Made by a program: the position numbers and the translations under genes. This document shows positions 3,152-44,873 of a stretch of DNA of 45,867 nucleotides, one piece after another; within the stretch, counting starts at the first letter, position 1; the number at the start of each line of letters is the position of its first letter. The notes under the pieces were generated by a model, which was not told where the DNA came from, did no database searches, and saw only the letters and a program-made list of their open reading frames with translations. The stretch is from Lactiplantibacillus dongliensis (GTDB lineage: Bacteria; Bacillota; Bacilli; Lactobacillales; Lactobacillaceae). Where the stretch lies: positions 1 to 45,867 of the forward strand of contig NZ_BJDK01000026.1 of the NCBI RefSeq assembly GCF_005405105.1, given 5' to 3'.

Positions 3152-3549
3152 GCCACGCTAGTTGGATTAAACTGTCACTCTGGTTGGCCCAGAATCGGCT
3201 GGAACGTGGTGGCCACGTTTGCGAGCCAAAGTTCGGTCTCGCAAGCCGGGCTTTATCTAGGCCGGAAAATCACCGACTAAGATAAACGACACCACTGAGC
3301 CAATTCTGGGCCGCCCGTCGTTAGCTAACGGGAATAAAAAAGTTAACGATTTATTTTAAGTTCAGTTAGTTAGCCGAGAGGTTGGTTCCTAAAATGCTCA
3401 GCCGTGTCGTTGGCCTTAGTTCGAGTGATTTGCTCGGACTTAGGCCAACGACAGTTTTGAAGACCTCTCTTTGGCTTCCAAATGGCCCATGGCGTTCCAG
3501 CATTTTAAAACCCAACCGGCAGGCGACAATTTCAACTAGCACCAAGCGT
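3152..3549 (+). repeat. Full-length foldback element, copy 1 (A then inverted B)
   Basis: Arm A (about 3152-3330) has outer arms GGCCCAGAATCGGCT and AGCCAATTCTGGGCC, enclosing a short hairpin (TTGCGAG/CTCGCAA) and a long hairpin (TTATCT.../...AAGATAA). Arm B (about 3372-3549) is the same layout reversed, with outer arms CCTAAAATGCT and AGCATTTTAAAA. The right end reads CTAGCACCAAGCGT. The flanks 3143-3151 (TACTCATTT) and 3550-3558 (AACTAATTT) match at 7 of 9 bases. It fills the gap between the parB and DUF951 genes. Confidence 0.85.
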
Positions 3550-3551
3550 AA

Positions 3552-4439
3552 CTAATTTAAGTCAATTTTCAAGATTTCCAAGATCCGGGTTAAATCGTCA
3601 TTCGATAAGTATGGAATCTCAATTTTACCCTGATCTTTTTTGCTAGCTTTGGTTTGAATCGAAACGGCCGTCCCAAACTTTTCTTGCAGTTGTTCTTCGC
3701 TCGCCCGAATATAAGGTGACTTTTTAACCGCAGCCTTCTTAGCTGGTTTAGCCGTATCTCCATTATAACGCGCCACGATTTGTTCGAGTTGACGCACGGT
3801 CAAATTATCTTTAACGGCCTTTTTCGCTAACGGCGCTAACTTCGACTTATCTTTTAAAGATAACAACGTCCGGGCTTGGCCCATCGATAACTTACCGCGT
3901 TGGATCAACTGCTTGACCCCGGCTGGCAACCCTAACAACCGCAAATAATTAGCGATATACGGGCGACTCTTGCCTAAACGCTTGGAAACTTCCGCTTGCG
4001 TAAGCTTTAACTTCTTCATTAAAGACTCGTAAGCTTCGGCTTCTTCTAATGGCGTTAAGTCTTCCCGCTGCAGGTTTTCCAGCACGGCAACTTCCATCAT
4101 TTGTTCTTCGGTAACGTCACGCACGATTGCTGGAATCGTCGTCTGCTTTGCGAGCTTCGAAGCCCGAAAGCGCCGTTCACCGGCAATTAATTCATACTTC
4201 TTAATTTCAGCATCTGGTTGCCGCACGATAATCGGCTGGAAAACGCCGGATTTTTCAATCGAACTAGCGAGTTCCTTTAGCGCCGCCTGGTCGAACTTAT
4301 GGCGCGGCTGATAAGGGTTAGCTCGAATATCAGTTAACGCTAGGTCAACCACCGCTGCTTCACTGGTTGGTTCATCAGCATCGGCAAACAAGGCGTCAAT
4401 CCCCCGGCCCAATGCTTTATTTTGATCTTTACTTGCCAT
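3552..4439 (-). CDS. parB: Chromosome-partitioning protein ParB (Spo0J)
   Basis: 295 residues. The N-terminal KALGRGIDALFA segment, typical of ParB, would contact ParA. A ParB/sulfiredoxin-fold domain follows, with NPYQPRHKFD and the CTP-binding GERRFRA motif (about residues 89-95). Then come a helix-turn-helix that reads parS (LTQAEVSKRLGKSRPYIANYLRLL) and a C-terminal dimerisation domain. ParB loads on parS near the origin and spreads as a CTP-dependent clamp, acting with ParA. It overlaps parA by 11 bases. The stop codon is TAG, inside the probable target duplication of repeat copy 1. No parS site is seen inside the gene. Confidence 0.97.
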   Translation of the reverse strand: MASKDQNKALGRGIDALFADADEPTSEAAVVDLALTDIRANPYQPRHKFDQAALKELASSIEKSGVFQPIIVRQPDAEIKKYELIAGERRFRASKLAKQTTIPAIVRDVTEEQMMEVAVLENLQREDLTPLEEAEAYESLMKKLKLTQAEVSKRLGKSRPYIANYLRLLGLPAGVKQLIQRGKLSMGQARTLLSLKDKSKLAPLAKKAVKDNLTVRQLEQIVARYNGDTAKPAKKAAVKKSPYIRASEEQLQEKFGTAVSIQTKASKKDQGKIEIPYLSNDDLTRILEILKIDLN

Positions 4440-5196
4440 GTGCAGCCAACACTTCCTTTGCTAATGCTAAATAAACTTGAGCACCCTTGGACCGAATATC
4501 GTAATCGATAATCGACAAGCCGTGACTCGGCGCTTCTGACAACCGAACGTTTCGAGGAATAATCGTCTGATAGACAGCATCCTTGAAGAACTTGCGAACT
4601 TCGGCATTGACTTGTTGGCCAAGGTTCGTCCGGGCATCGTACATGGTTAACAACACGCCTTCAATTTTTAATTGGCGGTTAAAGTGCTTTTGAACCAACT
4701 TAATGGTATTCAGTAACTGGCTCAACCCTTCCAATGCATAATATTCACTTTGAACTGGGATTAAGATGGAGTCACAAGCGGTAAACGCATTGATCGTCAG
4801 TAGTCCCAGCGAAGGTGGACAGTCGATTAGAATAAAATCGTAATCGCCACGAACATCATCAATGGCATCACGTAGCCGCGTCTCACGAGCCATCATCGGC
4901 GTTAGTTCGATTTCAGCCCCTGACAATTGAATCGTCGCTGGCACAATGTCCAAGCCCTGGTGAGTTGTTGGGATAATCGTTTCTTTAATCGGGGTATCAT
5001 TAATTAAAACATCATAAATTTCATGTTCGATGGCTGACTTTTGAATGCCCAGACCACTCGTGGCATTGCCTTGAGCATCCGTATCAATCAATAGTACTTT
5101 TTGGCCTTGATCGACCAGCGCCGCACCTAAGTTGATGCTCGTGGTCGTCTTGCCAACGCCACCTTTTTGGTTAGCGAGTGCAATAACGGTTCCCAT
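4429..5196 (-). CDS. parA: Chromosome-partitioning ATPase ParA (Soj)
   Basis: 255 residues, normal Soj length. The deviant Walker A KGGVGKTT is at residues 11-18 with the signature Lys, followed by DTDAQGNAT and DCPPSLG (Walker B region). MinD/ParA-type ATPases form ATP-dependent dimers on DNA and are switched off by ParB. The gene sits 3 bases after the noc stop codon and overlaps parB, so noc, parA and parB are translationally linked. Confidence 0.97.
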   Translation of the reverse strand: MGTVIALANQKGGVGKTTTSINLGAALVDQGQKVLLIDTDAQGNATSGLGIQKSAIEHEIYDVLINDTPIKETIIPTTHQGLDIVPATIQLSGAEIELTPMMARETRLRDAIDDVRGDYDFILIDCPPSLGLLTINAFTACDSILIPVQSEYYALEGLSQLLNTIKLVQKHFNRQLKIEGVLLTMYDARTNLGQQVNAEVRKFFKDAVYQTIIPRNVRLSEAPSHGLSIIDYDIRSKGAQVYLALAKEVLAAHGK

Positions 5197-5198
5197 AA

Positions 5199-6050
5199 TT
5201 ACTTACCACCCCTTGGTTTATTTTTCGGAATTTCAATCGTGATCCGATAACCGTCTTCAGTGTCTTCCTCATGAGTTTTCACCGACAGACCAGCATCAGT
5301 CACCATTTTGATCGACTGCTTAATCGTATTGACCGCGATCCGGGTATCGCCCGTTAACCCCCGTGGTCGTTTACGTTTTGGTTTAGGCGGATTATTTAGC
5401 TTTTGAACCAATTGCTCCGTCGCTTTGACCGTTAAATCATGCGCTAAGATTTGTTGCAACACATCTAACTGCTGGTCAGTAGTCAAGGTCAATAAGGCCC
5501 GGCCATGCCGTTCACTAATCTGTCGCTGTAACAACGCTTGTTGCACCGGTTGGGCCAACTTCAATAACCGTAATTTGTTAGCAACAAATGACTGACTCTT
5601 ACCGAGTTCACTGGCCATCGCAGCCTGAGTCAAGTGATTGAGCTTCATTAGCTCCTGATAGGCCGTGGCCTCTTCAATAACGGTCAAATCTTGTCGTTGT
5701 AAATTTTCAATCAACGCCATTGACGCTGTCTCACCATCATCCATCTTCTGGATAATCGCCGGAACATCCGCCCAATGTAGGGACGTGACGGCCCGGAAAC
5801 GGCGTTCGCCAGCAATAATTTCATATTTCTTATCAGCGTACTCACGTAACACGATTGGTTGCAACAACCCGTGTTCCGCAATCGTAGCCGCTAATTCCGC
5901 AATTCCCGCTTCATCAAAGACTTGGCGCGGTTGAAAACGGTTCGGAATAATGGCGGTAACCGGCACGCGAATGATTTGTTGATGCTGCGTTGCCGCTTCC
6001 GTATCCTTATTACGCTTATCGCGATTCGAGCCAAATAAGGAGAATGCCAT
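5199..6050 (-). CDS. noc: Nucleoid occlusion protein Noc (ParB paralogue)
   Basis: 283 residues. It has the ParB-fold core with the GERRFRA motif and a helix-turn-helix (LTQAAMASELGKSQSFVANKLRLL), but its N-terminus is MAFSLFGSNRDKRNK. This short amphipathic segment resembles the membrane-targeting helix of Noc rather than the ALGRGIDALF start of ParB. Noc binds its own sites and blocks division-ring assembly over the nucleoid. It lies between rsmG and parA, the usual order in Firmicutes. Confidence 0.93.
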   Translation of the reverse strand: MAFSLFGSNRDKRNKDTEAATQHQQIIRVPVTAIIPNRFQPRQVFDEAGIAELAATIAEHGLLQPIVLREYADKKYEIIAGERRFRAVTSLHWADVPAIIQKMDDGETASMALIENLQRQDLTVIEEATAYQELMKLNHLTQAAMASELGKSQSFVANKLRLLKLAQPVQQALLQRQISERHGRALLTLTTDQQLDVLQQILAHDLTVKATEQLVQKLNNPPKPKRKRPRGLTGDTRIAVNTIKQSIKMVTDAGLSVKTHEEDTEDGYRITIEIPKNKPRGGK

Positions 6051-6068
6051 TTGAATTACCTCCCAACA

Positions 6069-6803
6069 TTATTCAGGCGCTGTTAACGGCTGTTTCGCCG
6101 GCGTCCCAGGTTTACGCGGATAGCGTTTAGGTGATGGCCGCTTCTTGTCAATCACCACAATATGGCGCGCATCGCCCGTTTCCGGTAGTGTAAAGGCTTC
6201 ATCAGCACTTAATTGACCACCTAATTGTTGCACCGCATAATCGCCTTCTGCAGTCTCAGTCCGCGCATTAGCGGCCTTCAACGCCACCATCTGCCCACCA
6301 ACCTTAACCAACGGCAAGCAAAGTTCGCTCAGTACGGATAGGCGCGCTACTGCGCGAGCAGTCACTAGATCGTAGCTTTCCCGATGAACGGACTTTTTCC
6401 CCGCAAAGGTTTCAGCGCGATCGTGGAATGTCTGAACCCCCGTTAAGTCTAACGCGGTAATCAGCTCGTTCAAGAAATTAATTCGTTTATTCAACGAATC
6501 GACAATCGTCACTTGCAGTTTTGGAAAGGCAATCTTCAGTGGCAACGATGGAAAACCAGCGCCAGCACCGACATCACAAATGGTCAGCGGCTGTTCCCGT
6601 AACGCCGCTACGTAAAAAGCCGGCGTAATCGAGTCATAGAAATGTTTCAAATAAACATCCGCTTCATCGGTAATCGTCGTTAAGTTGAATTGCCGGTTAG
6701 TCTCAATCAATAATCGGTAGTAAGTTGCGAATTGGGCCATTTGGTGAGCATCAAGGGTAATCCCTTTGGCCGCCAAAGCCTGTTTAAATTCTTCTGGATT
6801 CAT
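6069..6803 (-). CDS. rsmG: 16S rRNA (guanine-N7) methyltransferase RsmG (GidB)
   Basis: 244 residues, normal length. The SAM-binding motif [15 protein letters not shown] lies at about residues 76-90, with [11 protein letters not shown] as motif II and TARAVARL further on. The C-terminal tail is unusually basic and proline-rich ([18 protein letters not shown]). RsmG methylates G527 of 16S rRNA in the 530 loop; loss gives low-level streptomycin resistance in other bacteria. It is first in the rsmG-noc-parA-parB run, and its upstream region carries the everted TGTTTCAC dyad at 6844-6866. Confidence 0.96.
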
Positions 6804-6843
6804 TTAAAACTCCTTAAATTACGGTTCTCAGATCCTGACAGTT

Positions 6844-6866
6844 GTGAAACAACGCTAATGTTTCAC
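6844..6866. promoter_or_regulatory. Dyad made of everted parS-like half-sites upstream of rsmG
   Basis: GTGAAACA (6844-6851), 7 bases, TGTTTCAC (6859-6866): a perfect 8-bp inverted repeat. The Firmicutes parS consensus, TGTTTCACGTGAAACA, is the same two halves in the opposite order. After the right half the sequence reads GTCACC, so it is not a full parS. It could be a regulatory operator or a transcript hairpin. The match in sequence and place is suggestive only. Confidence 0.45.
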
Positions 6867-6980
6867 GTCACCTCATAACTTTAACTTAAAATCGGGCTAA
6901 AATCAATGCTGATACCCGCATTATTAACCGCGGTTAACCCTTGGAAATGCTAGGTTTTCAGTCAACTTAGGCGTTCGACA

Positions 6981-7090
6981 CAAATACTAGTTCGCTGGCA
7001 CCTGCCACGCTGGTTGGCCACGGTACGAGTGGTCGGCTTGGCTTAAATCCGAGCATTTTAGCAACCAACCAGCAGACGGCAGGCAGACTC
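6981..7090. repeat. Foldback repeat remnant with internal deletion
   Basis: It keeps ACGCTGGTTGGCCACGG near the left and GAGCATTTTAGCAACCAACC plus GGCAGGCAG near the right. Both internal hairpins are reduced. It lies just past the nupC terminator. The 6804-7157 gene-free stretch holds this, the parS-like dyad and that terminator. Confidence 0.6.
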
Positions 7091-7095
7091 AAACA

Positions 7096-7135
7096 AAAAT
7101 ACGGCAATTCGAGATGACCACCTCGAATTGCCGTA
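7096..7135 (-). terminator. Strong intrinsic terminator of the nucleoside transporter
   Basis: TACGGCAATTCGAG (7100-7113) and CTCGAATTGCCGTA (7122-7135) form a perfect 14-bp stem. On the minus strand it is followed by TTTTTGTTT. Confidence 0.93.
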
Positions 7136-8993: not shown

Positions 8994-9066
8994 TGTTAGT
9001 TAAAATCGCCACGTTCCAGCCAATTCTGGCTTAACCAGAGTGACCAGTCCAAGCTAATTAGCATTA
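8994..9066 (-). repeat. Foldback repeat remnant (end of arm A only)
   Basis: Contains CCACGTTCCAGCCAATTCTGG then AACCAGAGTGACCAG and AAGCTAATTAGCA: the terminal quarter of arm A, inverted. The rest is lost. It lies in the promoter region of the DUF915 gene. The 8442-9104 gap otherwise holds the nupC leader and the small RNA locus. Confidence 0.65.
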
Positions 9067-9104
9067 AAAAGTCTACATATTTGGAAACGAGGTAACCGAG
9101 CACG

Positions 9105-12429: not shown

Positions 12430-12793
12430 TTAGCGCTTATCAGATCAAACTTGCCACTCTGGTTGGCCCAGCACCGGCTGGAACGTGGTGGCCACGTTTT
12501 CGAGCCACAGAACGGTCTCGAAAGCCGGGCTTTATCTAAGTCGAAAACCACGACTAAGATAAACGACACCACTGAGCCAATGCTGGCCGCCCGGCGTTAA
12601 TTATCAGATGGGTTGTCTATGTACGTTATTTTTAATTAGTTACCTTAGCCGTGCCGTTGATCTCAGTGCAAGTGGCTTCTTGAACTTAGACCAAGATCAG
12701 TTTTGAAGACCCAGCTTGGCTTCAAAATAGCCCACAGCGTTCCAACATTTTAGCAACCAACCGGCAGACGATAATTTTGACTAGCACAAGCGA
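12430..12793 (+). repeat. Full-length foldback element, copy 2 (A then inverted B)
   Basis: Arm A (about 12430-12600) has the short hairpin in the TTTCGAG/CTCGAAA form. Arm B (about 12640-12793) keeps CAGTTTTGAAGACC and AACATTTTAGCAACCAACC. The long hairpin of B has changed in both arms compared with other copies (TCAAG/CTTG in place of CCGAG/CTCG). The right end is CTAGCACAAGCGA. No convincing flanking duplication. It fills most of the 12312-12903 gap, together with the promoter at 12837-12865. Confidence 0.8.
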
Positions 12794-13739: not shown

Positions 13740-13750
13740 ATACATAGTAT

Positions 13751-14020
13751 ACGTTTGGTGCTAGTTGGATTAAAATGTCACTCTGGTTGGCCCAGCATCG
13801 GCTGGAACGTGGTGACCGCGTTTGGAAGCCAAAGGTCGGTCTTCCAAGCCGGGGGTTATCTAAGTCGGAAAATCACCGACCAAGATAAACGACACCACTG
13901 AGCCAATGCTGGGCCGCCCGACGTTAACTAACAGCACTTAAAAAATTAACAATTAGTGATTTTCAGCTCAGCCATTTAGCATCCAACTGGCAGGCGGCAA
14001 TTTCAACTAACATCAAGCGT
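13751..14020 (+). repeat. Foldback element copy 3, with exact 9-bp target duplication
   Basis: Arm A is complete (about 13751-13935), with the TTGGAAG/CTTCCAA short hairpin. Arm B has lost both hairpins and keeps only its outer end (about 13965-14020). The left end reads ACGTTTGGTGCTAGTTG and the right end, inverted, ACGCTTGATGTTAGTTG. ACATAGTAT occurs at 13742-13750 and again at 14021-14029, directly abutting the ends. It lies inside the ABC importer operon. Confidence 0.92.
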
Positions 14021-14064
14021 ACATAGTATGACCCATTACGCGTTATAGGAGGCCCTTTACACTT

Positions 14065-15582: not shown

Positions 15583-15645
15583 TCCGATTACCATTTTGAA
15601 GCCAATAACGATCCTCAAGATTTAAAAATAATCAACCATTAATTT

Positions 15646-16040
15646 ACGCTTAGCGCCAGTTGAAATTGCCGCCTGCCGGTTGGTTTCTAAAATGCTAGAA
15701 CGCCATGGACCATTTTGAAGCCAAAGCCTGGTCTTCAAAACTGGCCTTGGCCTAAGTCCGAGCAGATCACTCGCACTAAGACCAACGACACGGCCGAGCG
15801 TTTTAGGAACCAACCTCTCGGCTAAATTTGAGGTCGATAATAGATAATCATTAATTCCCGTTAACTAACGCCGGGCGGGCCAGAATTGGCTCAGTGGTGT
15901 CGTTTATCTTAGTCGGTGATTTTCCGACTTAGATAAAGCCCGGCTTTCGAGACCGTACTGTGGCTCGAAAACGCGGCCACCACGTTCCAGCCGATTCTGG
16001 CCCAACCAGAGTGGCAAGTTAAGCCAACTAGCACTAAACA
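15646..16040 (-). repeat. Full-length foldback element copy 4, with 9-bp target duplication
   Basis: Inverted order: B (about 15646-15830) then A (about 15857-16040), 395 bp. The left end is ACGCTTAGCGCCAGTTG; the right end is CCAACTAGCACTAAACA. Flanks CATTAATTT (15637-15645) and CATTAATAT (16041-16049) match at 8 of 9 and abut the ends exactly. Its edge is only 14 bases from the padR -35 box. It fills the 15546-16132 gap. Confidence 0.92.
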
Positions 16041-18052: not shown

Positions 18053-18083
18053 TGGCGCCATTCTAGCTAACTTTACAATACCA

Positions 18084-18127
18084 AAAAGAACGTTCACAAC
18101 GATTTAAACCGTTGCGAGCGTTCTTTT
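18084..18127. terminator. Bidirectional terminator between the padR operon and the GGDEF gene
   Basis: AAGAACGTTCACAACG pairs with CGTTGCGAGCGTTCTT with two mismatches. A-rich left and T-rich right flanks serve both strands. Confidence 0.9.
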
Positions 18128-18137
18128 ATTAACTGAA

Positions 18138-19316
18138 TTATAATTTCTGGGTGTCACCTTCGACCGTAATGCGATCACGGCCAGCTTCTTTAGCCAAGTA
18201 TAAATAATGATCAACCCGTTTGAACCAACTATCGAAGTTTAAATCCGTGGTCTGTAACGCGGAAATCCCGATTGAGACCGTGACATTCAGCTTCTTACCA
18301 TTGAGGTTAACTGGTTCATGTTGTAAGGTATCCCGAATTGCCGTCACAATCCGTTGGGCTTCTAAGGGTTCAGTGTTTTCAAAGATAATGACAAACTCTT
18401 CACCACCATAGCGAAATAGCTCGCCATGATTAGTCTGCCGTAACAATTCCTGATTAAAATGCTGCGCAACATGCTTTAACACCGCATCACCCGCCAGATG
18501 GCCATAGTCGTCATTGAAGTATTTGAAATGGTCAATGTCAAACATTGCCATCGTAATCGGCATCGCGGGGTGCCGCTGATAGACGCCAAAGACCCCGACC
18601 GTCGTAGTATCAAAGTTGGCTCGGTTACGAACCCCGGTCAGCTCATCATAATTAGCCGCTTGATCTAGGCTCGCAAAATGCGCGATCACGCGATTAACCC
18701 GTGTGACAAAGAACCGGATGATCCACATATAGATAATAAAGATCACTAACACATTAACGATGTAAAATAGCCGAAATGGCCGGACCGACCAAATGATCAA
18801 ACACCACGCCAAACCGTAGAGTAGTTGTAACCCTAAGAATCGCCATTCCGACTTTAAAACCAACGCTTGATGATGACTAATATAGCCAATCACCCCAACT
18901 AACACTAAGAGCATCAGGGCAAACAGCCACCACCACTGCCAGCTTGCGCCCATATACAGCGCCTGACCGTAGAAGAACACCGGCATCGCCAGATTGACCA
19001 AGGTTACGGCAATATTTTGCATGGCGTACAAACTAAAGAGTAGGATCATCAATTGAGCAATCGCATAGCCCCAGCTCAAAACGTTGCCAGCATTCAGTAC
19101 CCAGAACGTTTGGCGCAATAAAACGACCCCACCGATGACTACGCCGGCTTCAACCAAGTCGATTACTAGTCGATAGCGTCGTGGCAATTTAGTCGACCGC
19201 GGGGCAAGCATATAAGTCAGGACCATCATAATCGCAATTAGCCCCACCGTAATTAGCGCCATGATAATTGATTTAATATTAAAAACATCGCTTAAAAAAT
19301 TTTCCAATAAGTACAT
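18138..19316 (-). CDS. Membrane diguanylate cyclase (GGDEF domain), copy 1
   Basis: 392 residues from the ATG at 19316, chosen because AGGTG lies about 6 nt upstream; the frame opens at a TTG 18 bases earlier. Six to seven membrane segments (about 10-205) form a sensor of unknown ligand. A cytosolic GGDEF domain (about 225-385) has NYDELTGVRNRANFD, FDIDHFKYFNDDYGH and the active-site GGEEF at about 304-308. All catalytic motifs look intact. The inhibitory RxxD site is absent (TNHG at that position), so product inhibition through it is not expected. It is paralogous to the next gene. Confidence 0.93.
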   Translation of the reverse strand: MYLLENFLSDVFNIKSIIMALITVGLIAIMMVLTYMLAPRSTKLPRRYRLVIDLVEAGVVIGGVVLLRQTFWVLNAGNVLSWGYAIAQLMILLFSLYAMQNIAVTLVNLAMPVFFYGQALYMGASWQWWWLFALMLLVLVGVIGYISHHQALVLKSEWRFLGLQLLYGLAWCLIIWSVRPFRLFYIVNVLVIFIIYMWIIRFFVTRVNRVIAHFASLDQAANYDELTGVRNRANFDTTTVGVFGVYQRHPAMPITMAMFDIDHFKYFNDDYGHLAGDAVLKHVAQHFNQELLRQTNHGELFRYGGEEFVIIFENTEPLEAQRIVTAIRDTLQHEPVNLNGKKLNVTVSIGISALQTTDLNFDSWFKRVDHYLYLAKEAGRDRITVEGDTQKL

Positions 19317-19462
19317 GGATTCACCTACCAACACTCACGTTCTAAAAACGTTTTTAAGCATACCATTATTTAACCCTAATGGTGATACTCATTTATAAAA
19401 ATTTTAATTCGTTTAATCCACTAATTAAGCTGGAAAAAGGGCCGGATTAGCGGGCCCTTGGA

Positions 19463-20656
19463 CTACTTCAATGCCATCGTGGCACCCTCGATAGTCAGGC
19501 GATTCCGCCCGGCCTCTTTCGATTGATACAAATAGTGATCAACTCGTTTGAACCAGCTATCAAAGTCTGAATCTTGTGCTTTCAAGGCTGAGATACCTAG
19601 CGAGACTGTAATCGTCAAAGCTTGATCATTATAGACTAACGGTTCCGCCTGCAGCGAGTTGCGAATCGTCGTCACAATCTGCCGAGCTTTTTGCGCATCG
19701 ACACCTCGGAAAATAATGACAAACTCTTCACCGCCGTAACGAAAGACTTCGCCCCGCGAGGTTTGTTTCGCCAATTCATGTTGGAAATGCTGCGCCACAT
19801 GTTTTAACACGGCATCACCCGTCATATGACCATATTGATCGTTAAAACGTTTGAAATGATCAATATCAAACATGACCATCGTAATCGGCACATTCGGATG
19901 TTTCTCGTAAAAGCCGAACACATCAACACTCGCGGTGTCAAAGCTCGCCCGATTACGAATCCCAGTCAATTCATCGTAATTGACGGCCTGATCTAAACGC
20001 GTAAACCGATCAACAAAATTACTGACACGGGTGACGAAGAACCGAATCACCGCCATATAAATAGTAAAGACCACTAGGACTGTTAAGGTGTACCACATAT
20101 CGAACGGATGCACTGACCAGATAATGAAACACCAAGTTCCACCGTAAACAATCTGCAGTGCTAGATACTTCCAAGTCGCGTCCAGCGCTGAGGCTTGATG
20201 ATGACTAACATAAATAATCGACCCGGTTAGTAATAGGCTCATCGTAATAAAGACCGCCACATACTGCCAACCACGCCCCATATACATGCCCTGACCATAG
20301 AAAAAGATCGGCATCACAATATTGACTAGCTCAACGGCTAGGTTTTGCATCATATATAGACTAAATAACAGCACCGTCAATTGAGCCGTGGCATAGCCCC
20401 AACTCAATACATCGCCTGAGTTCATCACCCAGAAAACTTGGCGTAACAAGATAATGCTGACAATCACACTGGCAGCTTCAATGCCATGAATCAGATGGGT
20501 AAACTTGGGGCGTCGTAACTTAAACGCTCGCTGTTCCAAGATATAAGTCATCGCCGTCATACTCGTAATTAGACCGACCATAATCAATGCAATAATCACC
20601 GCTCGAATATTAATAAAATCGGTCGTAAATTGTTCGATTAAATCCATTACTGGCAT
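19463..20656 (-). CDS. Membrane diguanylate cyclase (GGDEF domain), copy 2
   Basis: 397 residues from the ATG at 20656, chosen for GGGGTG 6 nt upstream and to match copy 1; the frame is open to 20695. It shares the same layout and much of its sequence with copy 1, in the membrane part (LRQVFWVMNSGDVLSWGYATAQL) and in the GGDEF domain (NYDELTGIRNRASFD, FDIDHFKRFNDQYGH, GGEEF at about 308-312, WFKRVDHYLY). The RxxD inhibitory site is missing (TSRG). A 146-base gap separates it from copy 1. Most simply an old tandem duplication whose sensors have diverged. Confidence 0.93.
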   Translation of the reverse strand: MPVMDLIEQFTTDFINIRAVIIALIMVGLITSMTAMTYILEQRAFKLRRPKFTHLIHGIEAASVIVSIILLRQVFWVMNSGDVLSWGYATAQLTVLLFSLYMMQNLAVELVNIVMPIFFYGQGMYMGRGWQYVAVFITMSLLLTGSIIYVSHHQASALDATWKYLALQIVYGGTWCFIIWSVHPFDMWYTLTVLVVFTIYMAVIRFFVTRVSNFVDRFTRLDQAVNYDELTGIRNRASFDTASVDVFGFYEKHPNVPITMVMFDIDHFKRFNDQYGHMTGDAVLKHVAQHFQHELAKQTSRGEVFRYGGEEFVIIFRGVDAQKARQIVTTIRNSLQAEPLVYNDQALTITVSLGISALKAQDSDFDSWFKRVDHYLYQSKEAGRNRLTIEGATMALK

Positions 20657-20930
20657 GTTACTCACCCCACCCATTAAGCCATTTAACGTTTTCACTTTAT
20701 CTTACCATTAATACGCGTCAAATGGTTAGGGTCAATTCCGCTAGTGGCCGGGGATTAACCCCCTTTTAGATAAATTTAATTATCAAATGTTACACGCAAA
20801 TGTTATCAAACCGCTTGCTAGTCAAGGCTTTAAATTGTTCAATATCATCTTCATTTTGACCGTTTCACTCGGCCAAAACTTTTTTTGCATCTTTAAAGGG
20901 TCGCCGGGCATATTCATAACCGTTTAGTGC

Positions 20931-21042
20931 GAGTGAAACTTGGTGCCTGCCGGTGGGGGGCTAAGTTGAAAACAATTAATCATTAATCCGTTAATTGATG
21001 TTGGCCCAACCAGCGTGGCCATTTCATTCAACTAACACCAAC
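20931..21042 (-). repeat. Foldback repeat remnant (both outer ends, core deleted)
   Basis: The left part, CGTTTAGTGCGAGTGAAACT then GCCTGCCGGTGGG, matches the outer end of inverted B. The right part, TTGGCCCAACCAGCGTGGC then TTCAACTAACACCAAC, matches the outer end of inverted A. Hairpins of both arms are gone. In the 20657-21154 gap I see otherwise only the terminator at 21080-21150 and AT-rich sequence. Confidence 0.65.
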
Positions 21043-22302: not shown

Positions 22303-22412
22303 CCTAACTAATACTAGTCGGTCTAATCCGCCACTCTGGTTGGCCCAGAAGCCAGCTGAAACGTGGTGGCCGATCGGTTTACGACTAAAATAAGCGACCA
22401 CCCCTGAGCGAT
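22303..22412 (+). repeat. Diverged foldback repeat remnant (arm A)
   Basis: It carries CCGCCACTCTGGTTGGCCCAG, then AAACGTGGTGGCC, and a decayed tail CGACCACCCCTGAGC. The short hairpin and arm B are missing. It lies between the YdcF-like and fetB genes. Confidence 0.65.
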
Positions 22413-22425
22413 AATTTGTCTCCAA

Positions 22426-23181
22426 TCACTTAAGTTGCTTTTGGGCATTATAAAAGTTGCGATAAGCCAAGTAACACGCAATAATCGCCCCTAAGCTAGT
22501 CGCTGACATCAACATAAATGTCACCATGATCTGGTACTTAATCGCCCGAACCGGATCAACCCCCGCAAAGATCAGCCCGGACATCATCCCCGGCAAGCTC
22601 ACTAACCCGACCGTCTTCGCTGAATCAATTGTCGGTGCCATCCCCGTTCGAATGGCTTCACGCACAATCGCAATCGATGCGTCCATCAAGCCAGCCCCCA
22701 AGGCCAAACGTTCCAATACCCCCTGACGCTGGTCATGGAACTGGGTCTTCAAGCTGCGATAAGCTAAGCCAATCGCCACCATCGCATTTGAGGCAATCAT
22801 CCCCGAAATGGGAATCATCTGCGATGGTATAAACTTAATGGCGCCTGATAACACGAGTACGCTTAAAGTCACTCCGGTACTCACGAAAATTGCCACAAAC
22901 GAAATCGGTAAGGCATGATCAATCCCAGCCCCACGCTTTTTCGCGTTCCAAGCAGCGTTAAAAACAATAAACATGATCATTGCCAGTGTCAGCCAGAAAT
23001 GATTAACGCGGAAAATATACTTCAAGACGTACCCAACCACAAACAACTGGATGACCGCCCGCACAACCCCAATCACAATATCGCGGTCCAGCCCCAACTG
23101 CTGCCACAAACTAATCGCCAAAGCCACCAAAACTAAAAACGCGGCTAAGAATAACGAAGTATTGTTCACTGCTAAATTCAT
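22426..23181 (-). CDS. fetB: FetB-like ABC exporter permease (UPF0014, iron/metal export)
   Basis: 251 residues with about seven membrane segments. The UPF0014 signature blocks are seen: RAVIQLFVVGYVLKYIF (about 41-57), ISGMIASNAMVAIGLAYR, then EAIRTGMAPTIDSAKTVGLVSLPGMMSGLIFAG. In E. coli FetA and FetB lower cellular iron and protect against oxidative stress. It overlaps the ATPase gene by 4 bases (ATGA), so the two are translationally coupled. The substrate here is inferred by family only. Confidence 0.9.
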   Translation of the reverse strand: MNLAVNNTSLFLAAFLVLVALAISLWQQLGLDRDIVIGVVRAVIQLFVVGYVLKYIFRVNHFWLTLAMIMFIVFNAAWNAKKRGAGIDHALPISFVAIFVSTGVTLSVLVLSGAIKFIPSQMIPISGMIASNAMVAIGLAYRSLKTQFHDQRQGVLERLALGAGLMDASIAIVREAIRTGMAPTIDSAKTVGLVSLPGMMSGLIFAGVDPVRAIKYQIMVTFMLMSATSLGAIIACYLAYRNFYNAQKQLK

Positions 23182-23902: not shown

Positions 23903-24136
23903 GTGTTTGGTGCTAGTTAGATCAAGCTGCTACTCTGGTTGGCCCAGAATCGGCTGGAACGTGGTGACCACGTTTTCGAGCCACAGAACGGTCTCGAAAG
24001 TCGGGCTTTATCTAAGTCGGAAAATCATCGACCAAGATAAACGACAGTTTTGAAGATTGGGCTTCCAAATGACACATGGCGTGCCAGCGTTCTAGGAACC
24101 AACCGGCAGGCGGCAAGTTCAACTAGCACCAATCAT
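23903..24136 (+). repeat. Chimeric foldback element: left half of A joined to right half of B
   Basis: It runs as normal arm A through the long hairpin to ACGACA, then continues as arm B from ACAGTTTTGAAGA. ACGACA occurs at the matching place in both arms, so this looks like a deletion by recombination or slippage at shared sequence. The ends are GTTTGGTGCTAGTTAG and AACTAGCACCAATCAT. Flanks TTATTACTT (23894-23902) and CTATTACCT (24138-24146) match at 7 of 9, with one base of offset. It fills most of the 23829-24252 gap. Confidence 0.82.
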
Positions 24137-26219: not shown

Positions 26220-26410
26220 ATTGGTGTTAGTTAGATTTAACTTGCCACTCTGGTTGGGACAGCATTGGCTGGAACGTGGTGGCCGCGCTGAGCCAATTTG
26301 GGCCCGACCGGCGTTAATTAACGGGCAGTCATAAATTAATGATTGCATACTTTTAACTTAGCATTTTAGCATTCAACCGGTAGGCGGCAATTTAACCTAA
26401 CGCGAACCGT
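26217..26410 (+). repeat. Foldback element with both hairpin cores deleted
   Basis: Outer arms of A remain (GTTGGGACAGCATTGGCTGG ... GCTGAGCCAATTTGGGCCCG), directly joined across the lost hairpins. B is reduced to its outer end (TAGCATTCAACCGGTAGGCGG). The left end TTGGTGTTAGTTAG abuts the T-run of the terminator; the right end is CTAACGCGAACCGT. Confidence 0.78.
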
Positions 26411-29610: not shown

Positions 29611-30195
29611 ACACATTGTGAGTTGTTACTTGCCGCCTACCGGTTGGTTTCTAAAATGCTGGAACGCCGTGGGCCATTTTGAAGCCAAAGAACGGTCTTC
29701 AAAGCTGTCCTTGGCCTAAGTCCGAGCAGACCACTCGCACTAAGGCCAACGACACGGCTGAGCATTTTAGAAACCAACCTCACGGCTAAACTCACGAAAC
29801 TTCCAACGAACTAAATTATTAATAATCACCACCAACACCCACATCTGTTTGACGACATTCTATATTTGAGCAATCCATTATTAATATCAAATCATATCTA
29901 AAACCGTCGTCTACCAACCAGGAAGTCCCCTGACAATCCTGCCGGTAAATTCCAACAACGGGCTGGCGCAAAGTCAACTTACTAATACAACATCATCCAT
30001 TTACAATTACCCGGTAATTAACACCGGGCGGGCCAGAATTGGCTCAGTGGTGTCGTTGTGCTTAGTTGCCTGGGTTATGGCGACTTAGCACAAGCCCGGC
30101 TTGCGAGACCGCCCTTTGGCTCGCAAACGCGGCCACCACGTTCCAGCCGATTCTGGCCCAACCAGAGTGGCAACTTTAAACCAACCTAATCCTTG
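29611..30195 (-). repeat. Foldback element copy with an expanded spacer (B ... A, inverted)
   Basis: Inverted B (about 29611-29790) keeps full hairpins. Inverted A (about 30011-30195) has a variant long hairpin, TTGTGC/GCACAA in place of TTTATC/GATAAA. Between the arms lie about 220 bases (29791-30010) instead of the usual 35-45; I see no gene there. It may be an insertion into the spacer or a longer ancestral form. No flanking duplication was seen. It occupies most of the 29539-30248 gap. Confidence 0.82.
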
Positions 30196-34087: not shown

Positions 34088-34181
34088 CCTAACATTAGTT
34101 TGGTTGATTCAGAATCGGCTAGAACTTAGGGCCAGTCAGTTTAGGACCTAACCGGCAGACAACAACTTTAACTAACCCTTA
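34088..34181 (+). repeat. Foldback repeat remnant (outer ends only)
   Basis: TTCAGAATCGGCTAGAAC from arm A runs straight into CAGTTTAGGACCTAACCGGC from the outer end of B. Everything between is lost. The remaining bases to 34300 are AT-rich, with a weak GCCGCT/AGCGGC stem that may serve as terminator of the glycosylase gene. Confidence 0.6.
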
Positions 34182-36019: not shown

Positions 36020-36096
36020 TTTCACTTCAAAATGCCCCCTAGTGTGCCAGCGTTTTAGCACCTAATCGGTCGGCGGTAATCTCAACTAGCTCCGAA
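36020..36096 (+). repeat. Foldback repeat remnant (outer end of arm B)
   Basis: ACTTCAAAATG, then GTGCCAGCGTTTTAGCACC, GTCGGCGGTAATCTC and AACTAGCTCC follow the outer part of arm B. Arm A is absent. In the 35911-36217 gap the rest is promoter sequence for the flanking divergent genes. Confidence 0.6.
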
Positions 36097-37547: not shown

Positions 37548-37949
37548 CCGCTTGGTGCTAGTTGGTTTAAATTGCCACTCTGGTTGGTCCAGAATCGGCT
37601 GGAACGTGGTGGCCGCGTTTGGAAGCCAAAAATCGGTCTTCCAAGCCGGGCTTTATCTAAGTCGGAAAATCACCGACTAAGATAAACGACACCACTGAGC
37701 CAATTCTGGCCCGCCCGGCGTTAACTAACGAGTATTAAAAAATTAACGATTGATTATTTTAAGTTCAGTCATTTAGTCGAGAGATAGGTTACTAAAATGC
37801 TCAGCCGTGTCGTTGGCCTTAGTGCGAGTGGTCTGCTCGGACTTAGGCCAAGACCAGTTTTGAAGACCGGACTTACTTCAAAATGGCCCATGGCATTCCG
37901 CGTTTTAGGAACCAACTGGTAGCCGGCAATTCCAACTAGCACCAAGGAC
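37548..37949 (+). repeat. Full-length foldback element copy 5 (A then inverted B)
   Basis: 402 bp. Arm A (about 37548-37730) has the TTGGAAG/CTTCCAA short hairpin. Arm B (about 37770-37949) has full hairpins. The left end is CCGCTTGGTGCTAGTTGG; the right end is CAACTAGCACCAAGGAC. The 9-base flanks match poorly, so a target duplication is not claimed here. It lies between two convergent genes and fills the 37469-38017 gap. Confidence 0.88.
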
Positions 37950-40537: not shown

Positions 40538-40633
40538 CCTCAGTTTTGAAAACCGGGCTGGGCTTCAAGATGGCCCACAGCGTGCCAGCATTTTAGAAAC
40601 CAACTGGCAGGCAGCAATTTTAACTAGCAACCG
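40538..40633 (+). repeat. Foldback repeat remnant (right half of arm B)
   Basis: CAGTTTTGAAAACCGGGCTG, then GGCTTCAAGATGGCCCACAG, GTGCCAGCATTTTAGAAACC, AACTGGCAGGCAGC and AACTAGCAACCGT. Arm A is lost. It separates the two divergent halves of the iron transporter and lies in the leader of the ATPase gene. Confidence 0.75.
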
Positions 40634-40668: not shown

Positions 40669-41469
40669 TTGAATTTAATTGAAACTAAAGCCGTCAGTAT
40701 CGGCTATGCGCAAAAGACGATTGTGGATCAGCTCTCCATTCAGATCCCCAAAGGCAAGATCACCACGTTGATTGGTCCCAACGGTAGTGGTAAATCAACC
40801 ATTATTCGGGCTTTAGCCCACTTATTGACTCCCACGACTGGAGCCATTTTGCTCGACCAGCAAAACATTCAAACAATCAAAGCTAAAGCCTTAGCTAAAA
40901 AACTTGCCGTCTTACCGCAAACGAATGCCACGGCTAGTGACCTGACTGTCGATGAACTTGTTAGCTTTGGCCGACTGCCTTATCGCCGGCCACTAGCTGG
41001 CTTAACGGCGACCGACCATCAAAAAATCGAATGGGCCTTAACCCAAGCTAAGTTACAAGACTTACGGCACCGCGCGCTGAGCACCTTATCTGGTGGACAA
41101 CGCCAACGGGCTTGGATTGCGATGGCAATTGCTCAAGATACCGAAACCATTATTTTAGATGAGCCCACGACTTACTTAGACTTAACTCACCAACTCGATG
41201 TAATGGTGTTAATTAAGCAATTAAACCAACAAGCTCATCGGACGATTATCATGGCTTTGCACGACTTGAACCACGCGGCTCGTTTTTCCGATCAACTCAT
41301 CGCCATCAAAGCTGGTCAGGTCCAGATTCAAGGTGATGTAAATACGGTTATGACAGCCGCTAATTTACGGCACATTTTCCAAATTGATGCCGAACTCGTC
41401 GACTATCACGGGACCCCGCTGATTCTCACGTATAATCATTGCGCGCCAACGGTAGGTGATTCCGTATGA
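40669..41469 (+). CDS. Iron-siderophore ABC transporter ATP-binding protein (FecE type)
   Basis: 266 residues. Walker A GPNGSGKST (about 35-43), Q-loop LPQTNATASDLTV, signature LSGGQRQRAWIAMAIAQ, Walker B IILDEPTTYLDL and H-loop LHD, all as in FecE/FhuC. The start is TTG, with AAAGGACC about 8 nt before it. It overlaps the first permease gene by 4 bases. It powers uptake with the two FecCD permeases. Confidence 0.94.
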   Translation: MNLIETKAVSIGYAQKTIVDQLSIQIPKGKITTLIGPNGSGKSTIIRALAHLLTPTTGAILLDQQNIQTIKAKALAKKLAVLPQTNATASDLTVDELVSFGRLPYRRPLAGLTATDHQKIEWALTQAKLQDLRHRALSTLSGGQRQRAWIAMAIAQDTETIILDEPTTYLDLTHQLDVMVLIKQLNQQAHRTIIMALHDLNHAARFSDQLIAIKAGQVQIQGDVNTVMTAANLRHIFQIDAELVDYHGTPLILTYNHCAPTVGDSV

Positions 41470-42464
41470 AATCAATGACTCGGGTCACCAGCCTTTTATG
41501 TTTGAGTGGCGTACTCTTAATTCTCGTCACTCTCGCCAGTTTACGTTGGGGCGCAGATCAGGTGTCCTTCAACACGGTCTGGCAAGCATTAAGGTCGACG
41601 CATCCGCAGAGTTTAGACCAACAAATCATCCGCACCATTCGCCTGCCGCGGGTCTTGGGCGCTGCTTTAATTGGTGCTGGTTTAGCTGGTAGCGGGGCCT
41701 TGATGCAAAGTGTCACCAAAAATCCGCTGGCCGATTCTGGCTTACTGGGTATCAATGCGGGGGCCGGCTTAATGTTGACGTTATGCTTGGCCTTTTTCCC
41801 CAAGCTTTCGACCTTACAAACAACGATTGGGGCCGTTGTGGGTGCGGCCATCAGTGCCGGCTTGATCTTCGCCATTAGTTCGCTGAAGCAAGTCCAGCTC
41901 AATCCAACGACCTTAGTCCTCGCTGGGATTGCAATTAGCGGGTTATTCACCGCATTAAGTGAAGGCTTAGCGCTCGTCTCACAATTAAAACAAGACTTGG
42001 CTTTTTGGTACTTCGGTGGCCTCGGTGCAGTCAGTTGGTCACAATTACGGGTCTTAGGACCAATTCTGCTCATTGGTCTGGTATTGACCTTACTCCTGGC
42101 ACCACAACTAAACTTAGGCTACTTAACCGACGATGCCGTTCAAAGCTTAGGTAAAAGTCTGCCGTTATTACGTTTAGGCGCCTTAGGTTGTGTCGTTATC
42201 TTATCCGGTATTTCCGTTGCCTTGGTGGGCACGATTACCTTTGTCGGCTTAATGGTCCCCCACATTGCCCGCTGGCTGATTGGCACCAACTATCGCCATA
42301 TCATGCCACTAACGCTACTACTGGGCGCGACTTTAACCGTTAGCGCAGATTTAATTGCTCGTTTAATTAATCCGCCGCAAGAAACCCCGTTTGGGATTGT
42401 GATTTCATTGATTGGGGTGCCCTTCTTCATTTATTTAGCCCGAAAGGAGCCCGGCAACTTATGA
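41466..42464 (+). CDS. Iron-siderophore ABC transporter permease 1 (FecCD family)
   Basis: 332 residues with nine or ten membrane segments. FecCD signature blocks: RTIRLPRVLGAALIGAGLAGSGALMQSVTKNPLADSGLLGINAGA (about 53-98) and GTITFVGLMVPHIARWLIG (about 254-272), the latter being the ATPase-contacting loop. It pairs with permease 2 as a heterodimer. Its start overlaps the ATPase gene and its end overlaps permease 2, each by 4 bases. Confidence 0.95.
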   Translation: MKSMTRVTSLLCLSGVLLILVTLASLRWGADQVSFNTVWQALRSTHPQSLDQQIIRTIRLPRVLGAALIGAGLAGSGALMQSVTKNPLADSGLLGINAGAGLMLTLCLAFFPKLSTLQTTIGAVVGAAISAGLIFAISSLKQVQLNPTTLVLAGIAISGLFTALSEGLALVSQLKQDLAFWYFGGLGAVSWSQLRVLGPILLIGLVLTLLLAPQLNLGYLTDDAVQSLGKSLPLLRLGALGCVVILSGISVALVGTITFVGLMVPHIARWLIGTNYRHIMPLTLLLGATLTVSADLIARLINPPQETPFGIVISLIGVPFFIYLARKEPGNL

Positions 42465-43459
42465 GTAAAACCAGTCGTTTCACCAGTTGGATGCTTGGGC
42501 TCTTGGGATTGACCCTAATCTTAATCATCATTAATCTCAACACCGGTAGTATGGCGCTAGGGCCGCAAGCCTTACTCGCTTGGCTCACTGGCCATGGTAC
42601 CGCGACCCAAACGTTAGTCCTGCTTAACTTTCGCTTACCACGAATTGTCTTGGCCCTATTAGTCGGTTGCGCTTTAGCCGTCGCTGGTAGTGTTATCCAA
42701 ACCGTCACGCAAAACCCCATGGCTGATTCTAGCCTACTGGGCATTAACAATGGCGCTGGTCTGGCCGTCATGGCTTTGATGGTCACTGCTGGGGGCGCTA
42801 CCAGCTTAGGCATGCGTCTGCCAATTATTGCCTTAATTGGGGCGTGGCTAAGCACCCTATTGGTCTTTCTCCTAGCTTATAAGCCCACCCAAGGGATTCC
42901 TCCAAAACGCCTGCTGCTAATCGGCGTGGCCTTATCTGGTTGCTTCTCAGCGGTGATGGTCCTAATGACCTTGAAACTATCCCCAGATAATTACCAATTC
43001 GTCATGAATTGGCTCGCTGGTAGTCTGTGGGGCACCAATTGGGCCTACATCGGTTGGGCCCTGCCATGGCTGCTCATTGGCTTAGGCCTGATTGCCTGGC
43101 AACTGCCCGTACTGGATGCGTTCAACCTTGGTAATGAACGCGCCCAAGCCCTCGGCGTTAACTTAAAGCATCAGCAATTATTATTGATCGGTGTCGCCGC
43201 CATGCTGGCTGGGGTGAGCGTCGCCATTAGTGGTGGCATCAGCTTCATTGGGTTGATTACGCCCAACTTAGCGCGCCGTTTAATCGGATCACGCCAACAC
43301 TTTCAATTACCACTGGCGGCCGTCTTGGGTAGTTGTCTGTTACTAGCCGCCGATACGGTCGGTAAACTCATTACCACAACGACTGAATTGCCAGTTGGGG
43401 TGCTAGTGGCCTTGATTGGAGCGCCATACTTTATCTATATGTTAATTCGCTCGCATTAA
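42461..43459 (+). CDS. Iron-siderophore ABC transporter permease 2 (FecCD family)
   Basis: 332 residues, a paralogue of permease 1. RLPRIVLALLVGCALAVAGSVIQTVTQNPMADSSLLGINNGAGL (about 50-93) and GGISFIGLITPNLARRLIG (about 258-276) are the FecCD blocks. Last gene of the operon, ending at a bidirectional terminator. Confidence 0.95.
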   Translation: MSKTSRFTSWMLGLLGLTLILIIINLNTGSMALGPQALLAWLTGHGTATQTLVLLNFRLPRIVLALLVGCALAVAGSVIQTVTQNPMADSSLLGINNGAGLAVMALMVTAGGATSLGMRLPIIALIGAWLSTLLVFLLAYKPTQGIPPKRLLLIGVALSGCFSAVMVLMTLKLSPDNYQFVMNWLAGSLWGTNWAYIGWALPWLLIGLGLIAWQLPVLDAFNLGNERAQALGVNLKHQQLLLIGVAAMLAGVSVAISGGISFIGLITPNLARRLIGSRQHFQLPLAAVLGSCLLLAADTVGKLITTTTELPVGVLVALIGAPYFIYMLIRSH

Positions 43460-43500
43460 AAAAACGATTTTGGCTAAAGTTAACCAAAATCGTTTTTTTG
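43458..43500. terminator. Bidirectional terminator between permease 2 and the small membrane protein
   Basis: AAAAAAACGATTTTGG (43458-43473) and CCAAAATCGTTTTTTT (43484-43499) form a perfect 16-bp stem, with runs on both strands. Confidence 0.95.
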
Positions 43501-43508
43501 ATAGGAGA

Positions 43509-43736
43509 CTAGTCACGGGTCTGGCCAAAGGCAAAATAAAGCCACGGGCCAATCGGTTGCACAAACGTTAATAACAACCAGCCCAACTTATGTCCACGCC
43601 GGACTGACTTAGCACGCAGAATGTCTGCAATCGCAATACTAGTCGCTGTAAATTCAAACGCCGCAAATGGTGCAATTCGTTGCCGAACGCGCCGTGACAA
43701 CTTGGCATGGTGCTGGAAACGACAATGTGTTGCCAT
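43509..43736 (-). CDS. Small membrane protein with a PLDc_N-type domain
   Basis: 75 residues. A basic N-terminal part (RRVRQRIAPF) is followed by two hydrophobic segments: FAAFEFTATSIAIADIL and HKLGWLLLTFVQPIGPWLYFAFG. The second ends in the P-I-G-P-x-x-Y-x-x-F-G pattern of the phospholipase D N-terminal domain, found alone in many small Firmicutes proteins. The function of the single-domain form is unknown. GAGGGGG lies 8 nt before the ATG and a TATAAT box upstream. Confidence 0.8.
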   Translation of the reverse strand: MATHCRFQHHAKLSRRVRQRIAPFAAFEFTATSIAIADILRAKSVRRGHKLGWLLLTFVQPIGPWLYFAFGQTRD

Positions 43737-43794
43737 GTTATCGACCCCCTCATCTGATAGCTACCATTATACGCCGTTCATGTTGTAAACGCTA

Positions 43795-44649
43795 TCAAGC
43801 GAAGATTTCCGGTGGCCGTTTCGTTAAGAACTTGATTGAGGGCACTTGGATCGTATCAATCACGGCTGGCAGCTGCAATAATTGCCGCACCGTAACCCCG
43901 ACTTGACCTCGATCAACCGTAATAATCTGATAACTGCTGCTCTCGCGAACTTCATGTAATTGTGGATCGGTGCAATCAATATCGTACGCCGCCGAACCGG
44001 CTACCACATTGAGCACATGGTCGCCAATCAAATATTCGGTCGGAAAGTGGACGTGCCCGGCAAAGACGCCCCCGATATTGTGACCGCGCAAAACTGATAA
44101 CAATTCGGAAGTGTTCTGTAAAATCGCGTAATGCATATTACTCATCGTCGGTCCATCGAGCGGATGATGTAAGAAGATAAAGGCGCGTTTCGTGGGAGCC
44201 TGGCGTAAATGTTTCCCCAGCCATTGTAGTTGTGACGCGGACACCCAACCAGCTTCATAACCGCTGACTTTGGAATCTAAAAAGTAAAAATCATTATTAC
44301 CAATCCGCATCCGATTAGCATAATACGGTCCCGGATCGGCTGGTAGATACCCATCATAAAAGGCTTGGCGATTATCATGATTACCGAGTAAGACCCGGAC
44401 ATGGCAGTTGAACTCGGCCTTCATCATATGCACGACACCATGTAGCCGCTGATAGTCATCCGCAGAACCGCCATGCATCAAGTCCCCCGTAAACACGATC
44501 AAGTCTGGTTCATACGGCAACGTTCGAATATCTTGGATAATTGCCGTTAGTTTGGACCACGGATCAGTCTGCTGCTGATGCGCCGGCACGTCGCCATGCG
44601 GGGTTAAGTGGGTATCTGAAATTTGAACAATATGCAAACGTTGCACCAT
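43795..44649 (-). CDS. Calcineurin-like metallophosphoesterase (CpdA-like, class III)
   Basis: 284 residues from the ATG at 44649; the frame opens at a GTG six bases earlier. Metal-site motifs in order: QISDTHL (DxH), FTGDLMHGG (GD), LLGNHDNRQ (GNHD), LHHPLDG and FAGHVHFP (GHxH). This set fits the CpdA/3',5'-cyclic nucleotide phosphodiesterase class. Lactobacilli use little cAMP, so other phosphodiesters or nucleotides are likelier substrates. It is predicted to be cytoplasmic. Confidence 0.92.
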   Translation of the reverse strand: MVQRLHIVQISDTHLTPHGDVPAHQQQTDPWSKLTAIIQDIRTLPYEPDLIVFTGDLMHGGSADDYQRLHGVVHMMKAEFNCHVRVLLGNHDNRQAFYDGYLPADPGPYYANRMRIGNNDFYFLDSKVSGYEAGWVSASQLQWLGKHLRQAPTKRAFIFLHHPLDGPTMSNMHYAILQNTSELLSVLRGHNIGGVFAGHVHFPTEYLIGDHVLNVVAGSAAYDIDCTDPQLHEVRESSSYQIITVDRGQVGVTVRQLLQLPAVIDTIQVPSIKFLTKRPPEIFA

Positions 44650-44772
44650 AATCACTTCTCTACTCTAGGATTCACCAAATGGTTAACTTCAGCATACTAA
44701 TCGGACGTAAATTTTTAACAAGCTATCCTGTAAAATAATTGTAAATTTTACGTTTTGCTAATCTAAAGATAA

Positions 44773-44873
44773 CCAAGATTAGTTAAACTTGCCATCTACC
44801 AGTTGATTTCTAACCGTAGCTACCACGTTTTAACCGATTCTAGCCCAACCAGCGTGGCAATCATTACTAGTAG
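44773..44873 (-). repeat. Diverged foldback repeat remnant
   Basis: CCAAGATTAGTTAAACTTGCC, then CTACCAGTTGATTTCTAA matches the outer end of inverted B. ACCACGTTTTAACCGATTCT, then AGCCCAACCAGCGTGGCAA matches the outer end of inverted A. Hairpins are deleted. Confidence 0.65.

Follow-up and report, generated by a model that had tools for sequence, protein, structure and literature searches.

The contig NZ_BJDK01000026.1 of Lactiplantibacillus dongliensis (RefSeq assembly GCF_005405105.1), 45,867 bp in length and analysed here in full as 'the window', carries between its genes a series of gene-less repeats that very probably represent a family of miniature inverted-repeat transposable elements (MITEs). 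An earlier note, made from the letters of the window, had described a foldback MITE family with about 17 intergenic loci, five of them full copies. All five were recovered by blastn with the boundaries that the note had given them, and a search of the window with these five sequences yielded 17 merged places. As the match at 15591–15618 was weak (E 0.006), we counted 16 places, which are listed below together with the target duplication that flanks one of them. Throughout, G000 denotes the window's own genome (3.107 Mb, 71 contigs) and G017 the genome of a sister species; the nearest named genome, judged from loci around a window gene, is that of L. songbeiensis 398-2.

3152–3549, plus strand: full MITE copy; arm A 3172–3326 (+), arm B 3368–3526 (−)
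7049–7081, unstranded: fragment (blastn)
9009–9068, unstranded: fragment (blastn); L. songbeiensis has it too
12430–12793, plus strand: full MITE copy; arm A 12451–12602 (+), arm B 12624–12771 (−)
13742–13750, unstranded: left copy of the 9-bp target duplication ACATAGTAT, from comparison with L. songbeiensis
13751–14020, plus strand: recently inserted copy; terminal repeats 13751–13767 and 14004–14020, arm A 13775–13929, arm B mostly deleted
14021–14029, unstranded: right copy of the 9-bp target duplication ACATAGTAT, from the same comparison
15646–16040, minus strand: full MITE copy, reversed; arm B 15669–15827 (+), arm A 15863–16017 (−)
21002–21041, unstranded: fragment (blastn); a larger copy lies at this site in G017
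22314–22435, unstranded: fragment; G017 has a short copy with both terminal repeats at this site
23904–24136, plus strand: copy with an internal deletion; occupied at the same site in G017
26221–26410, plus strand: degenerate copy, common to G017
29611–30195, unstranded: long form; arm B 29633–29791 (+), long spacer, arm A 30016–30173 (−)
34101–34174, unstranded: fragment (blastn, E 0.001)
36024–36093, unstranded: arm B fragment (blastn)
37548–37949, plus strand: full MITE copy; arm A 37572–37726 (+), arm B 37771–37926 (−)
40540–40629, unstranded: arm B fragment (blastn)
44787–44861, unstranded: fragment (blastn)

The arrangement described in the note, an arm A followed by an inverted arm B, proved correct, and each arm corresponds to a single match to R1, a covariance model that we built on 31 sequences; the body of the MITE thus consists of two inverted copies of a ~158-nt motif, which is also present in other species. 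At E ≤ 0.01 the window contains 24 matches to R1, of which the 13 scoring ≥38 bits were taken as arms, the remainder being mostly antisense echoes of the MITE palindromes. No plausible gene was found in any full copy, as the note had also reported, and none of 30 copies from G000 fell inside an open reading frame (ORF) according to a crude ORF caller; 15 of these 30 lie between tandem, 11 between convergent and four between divergent genes. The copy at 3152–3549, with a perfect right terminal repeat (3533–3549) and a degenerate left end, stops at a distance of 2 bp from the next gene's stop codon. The density of one copy per 2.7 kb given in the note holds for the window and not for the genome: the window is richer in arms than the genome average, because it has 12 arm cores where 4.8 would be expected from the genome mean (324 in 3.107 Mb), so that the figure was raised by the choice of window.

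The inverted ends are a property of the whole genome. The 17-bp end ACGCTTGGTGCTAGTTG occurs at 256 sites in G000, allowing ≤3 mismatches, against four for a reversed-pattern control, and the arm core GCTGGAACGYSRTGG at 324 sites, allowing ≤1 mismatch, against none. Among 21 Lactiplantibacillus genomes, arm cores were most numerous in G017 (403) and G000 (324), followed by G020 (108), G019 (92), G015 (80) and G013 (77), with the lowest count, a single core, in G004. Ends of the ACGCTTGG type were abundant in G017 (254; control 10) as in G000, slightly raised in G019 (45; control 10), G015 (35; 8), G013 (33; 13), G003 (29; 10) and G004 (19; 7), and near the control in the remaining genomes of the genus, including G020 (20; 15). 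A search for the MITE in plasmids and phages gave no match. One very short derivative in G000, only 98 bp long (contig C12, 146–243; L160 146–243), retains both terminal repeats.

Signs of transposition came from target duplications and from one empty site. We assembled 38 copies (30 from G000, L001–L030; four from G017; one from G008; three from G013) and kept the 33 in which both ends were within five mismatches of the 17 positions, five copies with poor ends having been dropped beforehand. Target duplications scoring ≥6 were found in 16 of the 33, compared with 0.56 on average and at most four in shuffled pairings; they range from 7 to 12 bp, with a modal length of 9 bp. In one clean case, the site of the 13751–14020 copy is empty in L. 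songbeiensis, and the window has ACATAGTAT on both sides of the element; this is a comparison between species, not strains. The gap between the flanking genes is also short, at ~70–90 bp, in 11 of 13 other Lactiplantibacillus loci (L062–L064 and L067–L074), for which a consensus built from copies of mixed orientation served as an additional blastn query; in L065 the gap is longer, though blastn finds no trace of the element there, and L066 has undergone rearrangement.

Occupation of the same site in relatives, which the earlier note had named as evidence against mobility, was found for several copies common to G017 and not for 13751–14020. Several of the window copies are old. The site of the long form at 29611–30195 is common to G017, where the copy has an internal deletion, and the L. 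songbeiensis counterpart of the 12430–12793 copy also carries an internal deletion. One further site, 18053–18137, is occupied in G017 only. The L. songbeiensis orthologue of the 15646 copy (L061, 11582–11740) is broken by another element-like sequence near a contig end. Two similar neighbouring genes in the window, at 18138–19334 and 19463–20695, look tandemly duplicated (74% identical DNA over 234 bp); by eye, we take their proteins to be GGDEF-like.

The note had advised a search for an insertion sequence (IS) with matching terminal repeats, and such an element exists. At four contig ends in G000 (C16, C42, C45 and C46) the assembly breaks off in an identical sequence that has the terminal inverted repeat (TIR) of the MITE but another interior, and C59 starts with what we judged by eye to be the other end of that IS. 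When 77 bases of this IS end were searched against 301 Lactobacillaceae genomes, complete 958-bp elements, bounded on either side by the TIR and containing a single ORF, were recovered from the genus-mate G013 and from G300. G013 holds three copies, two with an intact frame of ~287 amino acids and one with stops; its protein belongs to the IS982 family (NF033520, 219 bits; cut-off 130), and one IS copy is flanked by a 7-bp duplication, AATTGAT. The published description of IS982 ends, AC(N)6T(N)5TT with variable direct repeats (PMC7335449), fits the G013-type IS. MITE and IS are identical over 18 bp at the best end, with weaker similarity to ~26 bp; beyond 13–26 bp at the ends, the MITE body gave only matches with E 0.8 or worse. 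An origin of the MITE interior as a deletion derivative of the IS was ruled out by this lack of significant similarity. On plasmids the 77-bp IS end had no match, and only partial relatives of the IS, at 60–80% identity, were found on 20 plasmid records. Another IS982 transposase (35% identical) is present six times on contig C1 of G020, at least five of these copies adjoining a related end, ACGCGTAGTGCTAGTTC.

Several observations weigh against a MITE family moved by this transposase. Seventeen of the 33 tested copies lack a good target duplication. The window and G017 also have copies in common at five intergenic sites in the stretch from 16.4 to 30.2 kb, two of them represented only by fragments in the window, and the internal deletions differ. 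An intact transposase of this type was not found in the searchable contigs of G000 (seven small contigs read as N), where the best relatives are either 54% identical with stops or 33% identical; with only IS ends and no close intact transposase visible there, a partner transposase in G000 is putative. G017 is equally rich in TIRs but has a related transposase only in decayed form, and G008 has at least a few MITE copies and no transposase match.

On balance we regard it as very likely that this is a MITE family moved via IS982-type ends, with a structured, non-IS passenger body that was captured and amplified. The earlier proposal of a non-autonomous, gene-less mobile element with its transposase encoded elsewhere is thus borne out by the IS982 TIR match, the significant target duplications and the empty site. 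In the mechanism that we propose, an IS982-type DDE transposase would recognise the 17-bp MITE ends and leave target duplications of 7–12 bp. The ~395-bp body is not IS-derived, and its two inverted ~158-nt motifs fold as single-stranded DNA. Capture of the motif between IS982 ends probably took place in the window's lineage and was followed by amplification, most of all in G000 and G017. The data show the ends, the IS in a genus-mate together with its ends in G000, the target duplications, one empty site, the structure with its compensatory changes and the wide distribution of the motif; we infer movement by an IS982 transposase, the order of capture and the keeping of structure in active copies. 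Most likely the family is a parasite of the genome that IS982 mobilises in trans.

A covariance search of Lactobacillaceae, which the note had recommended for the element as a whole, showed that its body is not private to the MITE family. R1 found the motif in 87 of 301 genomes and 14 of 40 genera (E ≤ 1e-4), also in genomes without these ends; an order-level search gave 11 positives in 295 genomes, all of them Lactobacillaceae, with the number of the 295 that lie outside the family uncounted. Match numbers per genome in both scans, and in the search with the 77-base IS end, are lower bounds. Named carriers include L. plantarum EGD-AQ4, L. mudanjiangensis, Levilactobacillus zymae and Lev. acidifarinae. 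Outside the IS982-ended lineage, two arms lay within 600 bp of each other in 22 of 59 loci, and all 25 neighbouring pairs were plus then minus; the 43 loci of the MITE lineage held 48 such neighbours and one plus-plus pair. G121, from another genus, has two plus arms followed by a minus arm. In related species of another genus, arm pairs occur at what seem to be the same intergenic sites, and no transposase gene was recognised between those arms. We also looked for an autonomous version, in which arms ~2.1 kb apart would enclose a gene; the intervening genes looked ordinary and lay between what are separate pairs, and the idea was rejected. Against Rfam, the window gave no match at the gathering score, and eight loci searched at E ≤ 1 gave only a sub-threshold match to a leader, outside the arm.

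The motif is also found inside other kinds of end. In G020, ten aligned copies reveal a ~570-bp element with ends TAGTGYATCGTAGCYATCATATTTAT in place of ACGCTTGG, and these ends occur at 12 sites (≤3 mismatches) against none in the control; a pattern search for the IS behind them saw no IS-sized inverted pair. The left flank in G310 and G012 is different again (CTACGTTTAGTCAAG...), and about seven of nine copies in G310 (L209–L217) adjoin, by eye, a terminator-like hairpin. We read this as one core under several ends (IS982, TAGTGYATCGTAGCYATCATATTTAT-type and CTACGTTTAGTCAAG-type), the parents of the last two types not having been found. Tentatively, and with rather more doubt than belief, we suggest that a conserved DNA-folding module outlives its transposons, having been acquired within no fewer than three sets of ends that look unlike one another and amplified in each; if that were true, the folded DNA, not the ends, would make the successful passenger.

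The predicted fold of each arm combines an outer stem with an internal loop, in which the letters GCTGGAAC / CTGAGC are conserved, and a pair of inner hairpins. Folded as single-stranded DNA, one MITE copy formed a terminal-repeat stem bearing two branched arms (z = −8.7), and none of 100 shuffled sequences was as stable. Compensatory changes support the arm fold. In alignment A4, of 85 distinct arms from outside the IS982-ended lineage, two-sided changes affected 44 of 46 stem pairs, and 95.3% of cells were paired, compared with 70.1% when shuffled and 32–47% when slid (covariation score 0.627 versus 0.161 shuffled). In alignment A3, of 104 arms (G000, G017, G013, G008, G010 and G020), the corresponding values were 26 of 46 pairs and 96.4% versus 81.6% shuffled (covariation score 0.379 versus 0.137). 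Both alignments were fitted to R1 and hence lean towards it; in A1, a MAFFT alignment made without structure, 27 of 46 pairs showed two-sided changes. In 15 arm pairs treated as orthologous (678 pair cells), 46 changes break a pair, 21 preserve it by being two-sided and three are of other kinds, or 42 pair-breaking and 10 two-sided after exclusion of two L066/L197 pairs of presumed orthology. Copies at fixed sites therefore decay, mostly by one-sided changes, an indication that it is the spreading copies that retain the structure.

Whether pairing is kept as DNA or as RNA can be judged from wobble pairs. With columns whose commonest pair is not Watson-Crick dropped, a control alignment of RNase P RNA from 30 Lactobacillaceae genomes contained 6.0% G.U (128) and 0.5% A.C (10), whereas A1 contained 0.4% G.U (5) and 1.7% A.C (23). 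The G.U and A.C counts were 25 and 22 in 54 A arms (two of 46 columns dropped), 24 and 29 in 40 B arms (three of 46 dropped), 56 and 118 in all 104 arms of A3, ten of which are neither A nor B, and 56 and 113 in A4 (one column dropped). Without dropping, they became 348 and 16 for RNase P, 128 and 23 for A arms, 64 and 74 for B arms, 209 and 120 for A3, and 137 and 113 for A4. Dropped and undropped counts for the arms differ because of a few fixed columns: G.T in all arms, T.G in A arms and two A.C in B arms. Distinct column states were about equally often G.U and A.C (30 and 34 in A4), and the refolded reverse complement of A1 gave 50 G.U and 9 A.C. In most counts, then, though not in all, the arms do not show the pronounced excess of G.U that marks an RNA. 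Since G.U does not dominate over A.C as it does in RNase P, pairing seems to be kept mainly at the DNA level; this is likelier than pairing as RNA, not proven.

Four other explanations deserve consideration. Structured RNAs (3′ UTR elements or small RNAs), to which the IS ends would be incidental, could account for the strong covariation and for the undropped excess of G.U in A arms, although this excess is owed to two columns fixed as G.U. The dropped counts of both arm types depart from RNase P, as do the undropped counts of B arms and of other species; distinct G.U and A.C column states are about equally numerous, the gene context is mixed and there is no Rfam family, and we consider this reading improbable. 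For the strand as drawn, the wobble test with its RNase P control makes a role as RNA unlikely. An RNA from the opposite strand would fit the excess of A.C over G.U in other species and the reversed ratio in the reverse complement of A1. We think it equally unlikely that the arms are REPIN-like pairs moved by a dedicated single-strand transposase (HUH/Y1, RAYT-type), with IS982 taking over only sometimes: structured motifs, often in inverted pairs, do occur in many genera without IS982 ends, internal-loop letters are conserved and most G310 copies adjoin a terminator-like hairpin, but the motif is several times longer than REPs, and inspection by eye of the ORFs in seven stretches revealed no transposase, no search aimed at RAYT genes having been made.

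More serious is the possibility, which we rate below even chances but well above the two preceding ones, that the compensatory changes in the arms arose by a mutational process acting across a hairpin, through template switching or through conversion of one side to match the other, not by selection on structure. Changes can be blockwise (at one shared site, TTCGAG/CTCGAA in the window versus TGGAAG/CTTCCA in G017), and with the fixed non-Watson-Crick columns left out few wobble intermediates remain, as copying from side to side would give. A strong in-place process should, however, favour two-sided changes, and arms treated as orthologous show 46 broken pairs to 21 two-sided changes; of these 21, 11 stem from a single locus pair of presumed orthology. 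Conservation of a few letters that are unpaired or lie in the internal loop (GGA, CTG) also speaks against template switching; the mean entropy of unpaired columns (1.02 bits) is not below that of paired columns (0.98 bits). Very improbable, finally, is that these are fixed chromosomal repeats, no longer or never mobile. Copies do share sites in G000 and G017 and in species pairs of another genus, but target duplications, the empty site and arm-core counts in genus-mates from 1 to 403 contradict this for the IS982-ended family; it may hold for other genera.

The fold may help transposition, protect DNA, bind a host protein or be a by-product of hairpin repair. The analysis points to a likely transposase for a highly abundant group of repeats in a genus associated with food, and exposes a structured DNA repeat without an Rfam match in 14 of 40 sampled Lactobacillaceae genera. 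As its pairing is mostly Watson-Crick, with no preference for G.U over A.C of the kind seen in RNA, the repeat could serve as a natural test case for whether selection in mobile elements acts on DNA hairpins themselves or template switching maintains them.

REP, BIME and REPIN sequences comprise many intergenic palindromic units, often in alternating orientation and associated with RAYT transposases; the unit described here differs in its length of ~158 nt and its three-way junction. RUP and BOX of the pneumococcus and EFAR of Enterococcus are gene-less, intergenic and able to fold, and RUP is said to be moved by an IS; their sequences and ends appear to differ from those of the present family. 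RUP and BOX are named in passages of PMC2267715 that mention L. johnsonii and not L. plantarum. No description of the present family was found among the top-ranked literature matches, mostly outside subscription papers. A close likeness is MITECca01 of Cardinium cOegib, which is ~240 bp long, has 169 copies that make up 3.5% of the chromosome and are mostly intergenic, and is described as deriving from a defective copy of a parental IS982 element in the same genome (PMC9769881). Both families have IS982-type ends, no transposase gene and a mostly intergenic location; MITECca01 is IS-derived, whereas the body here is unrelated to the IS and comprises two inverted structured motifs. IS982 elements themselves, such as ISLpl4 of L. 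plantarum, are ~1 kb long with a transposase of ~290 amino acids (PMC7335449); the MITE shares their end rule and variable direct repeats and differs in having no transposase gene. MITEs of IS982 type are thus already known, and what appears to be new is the group of hosts, an interior not derived from the IS and a structured core that extends across the family Lactobacillaceae.

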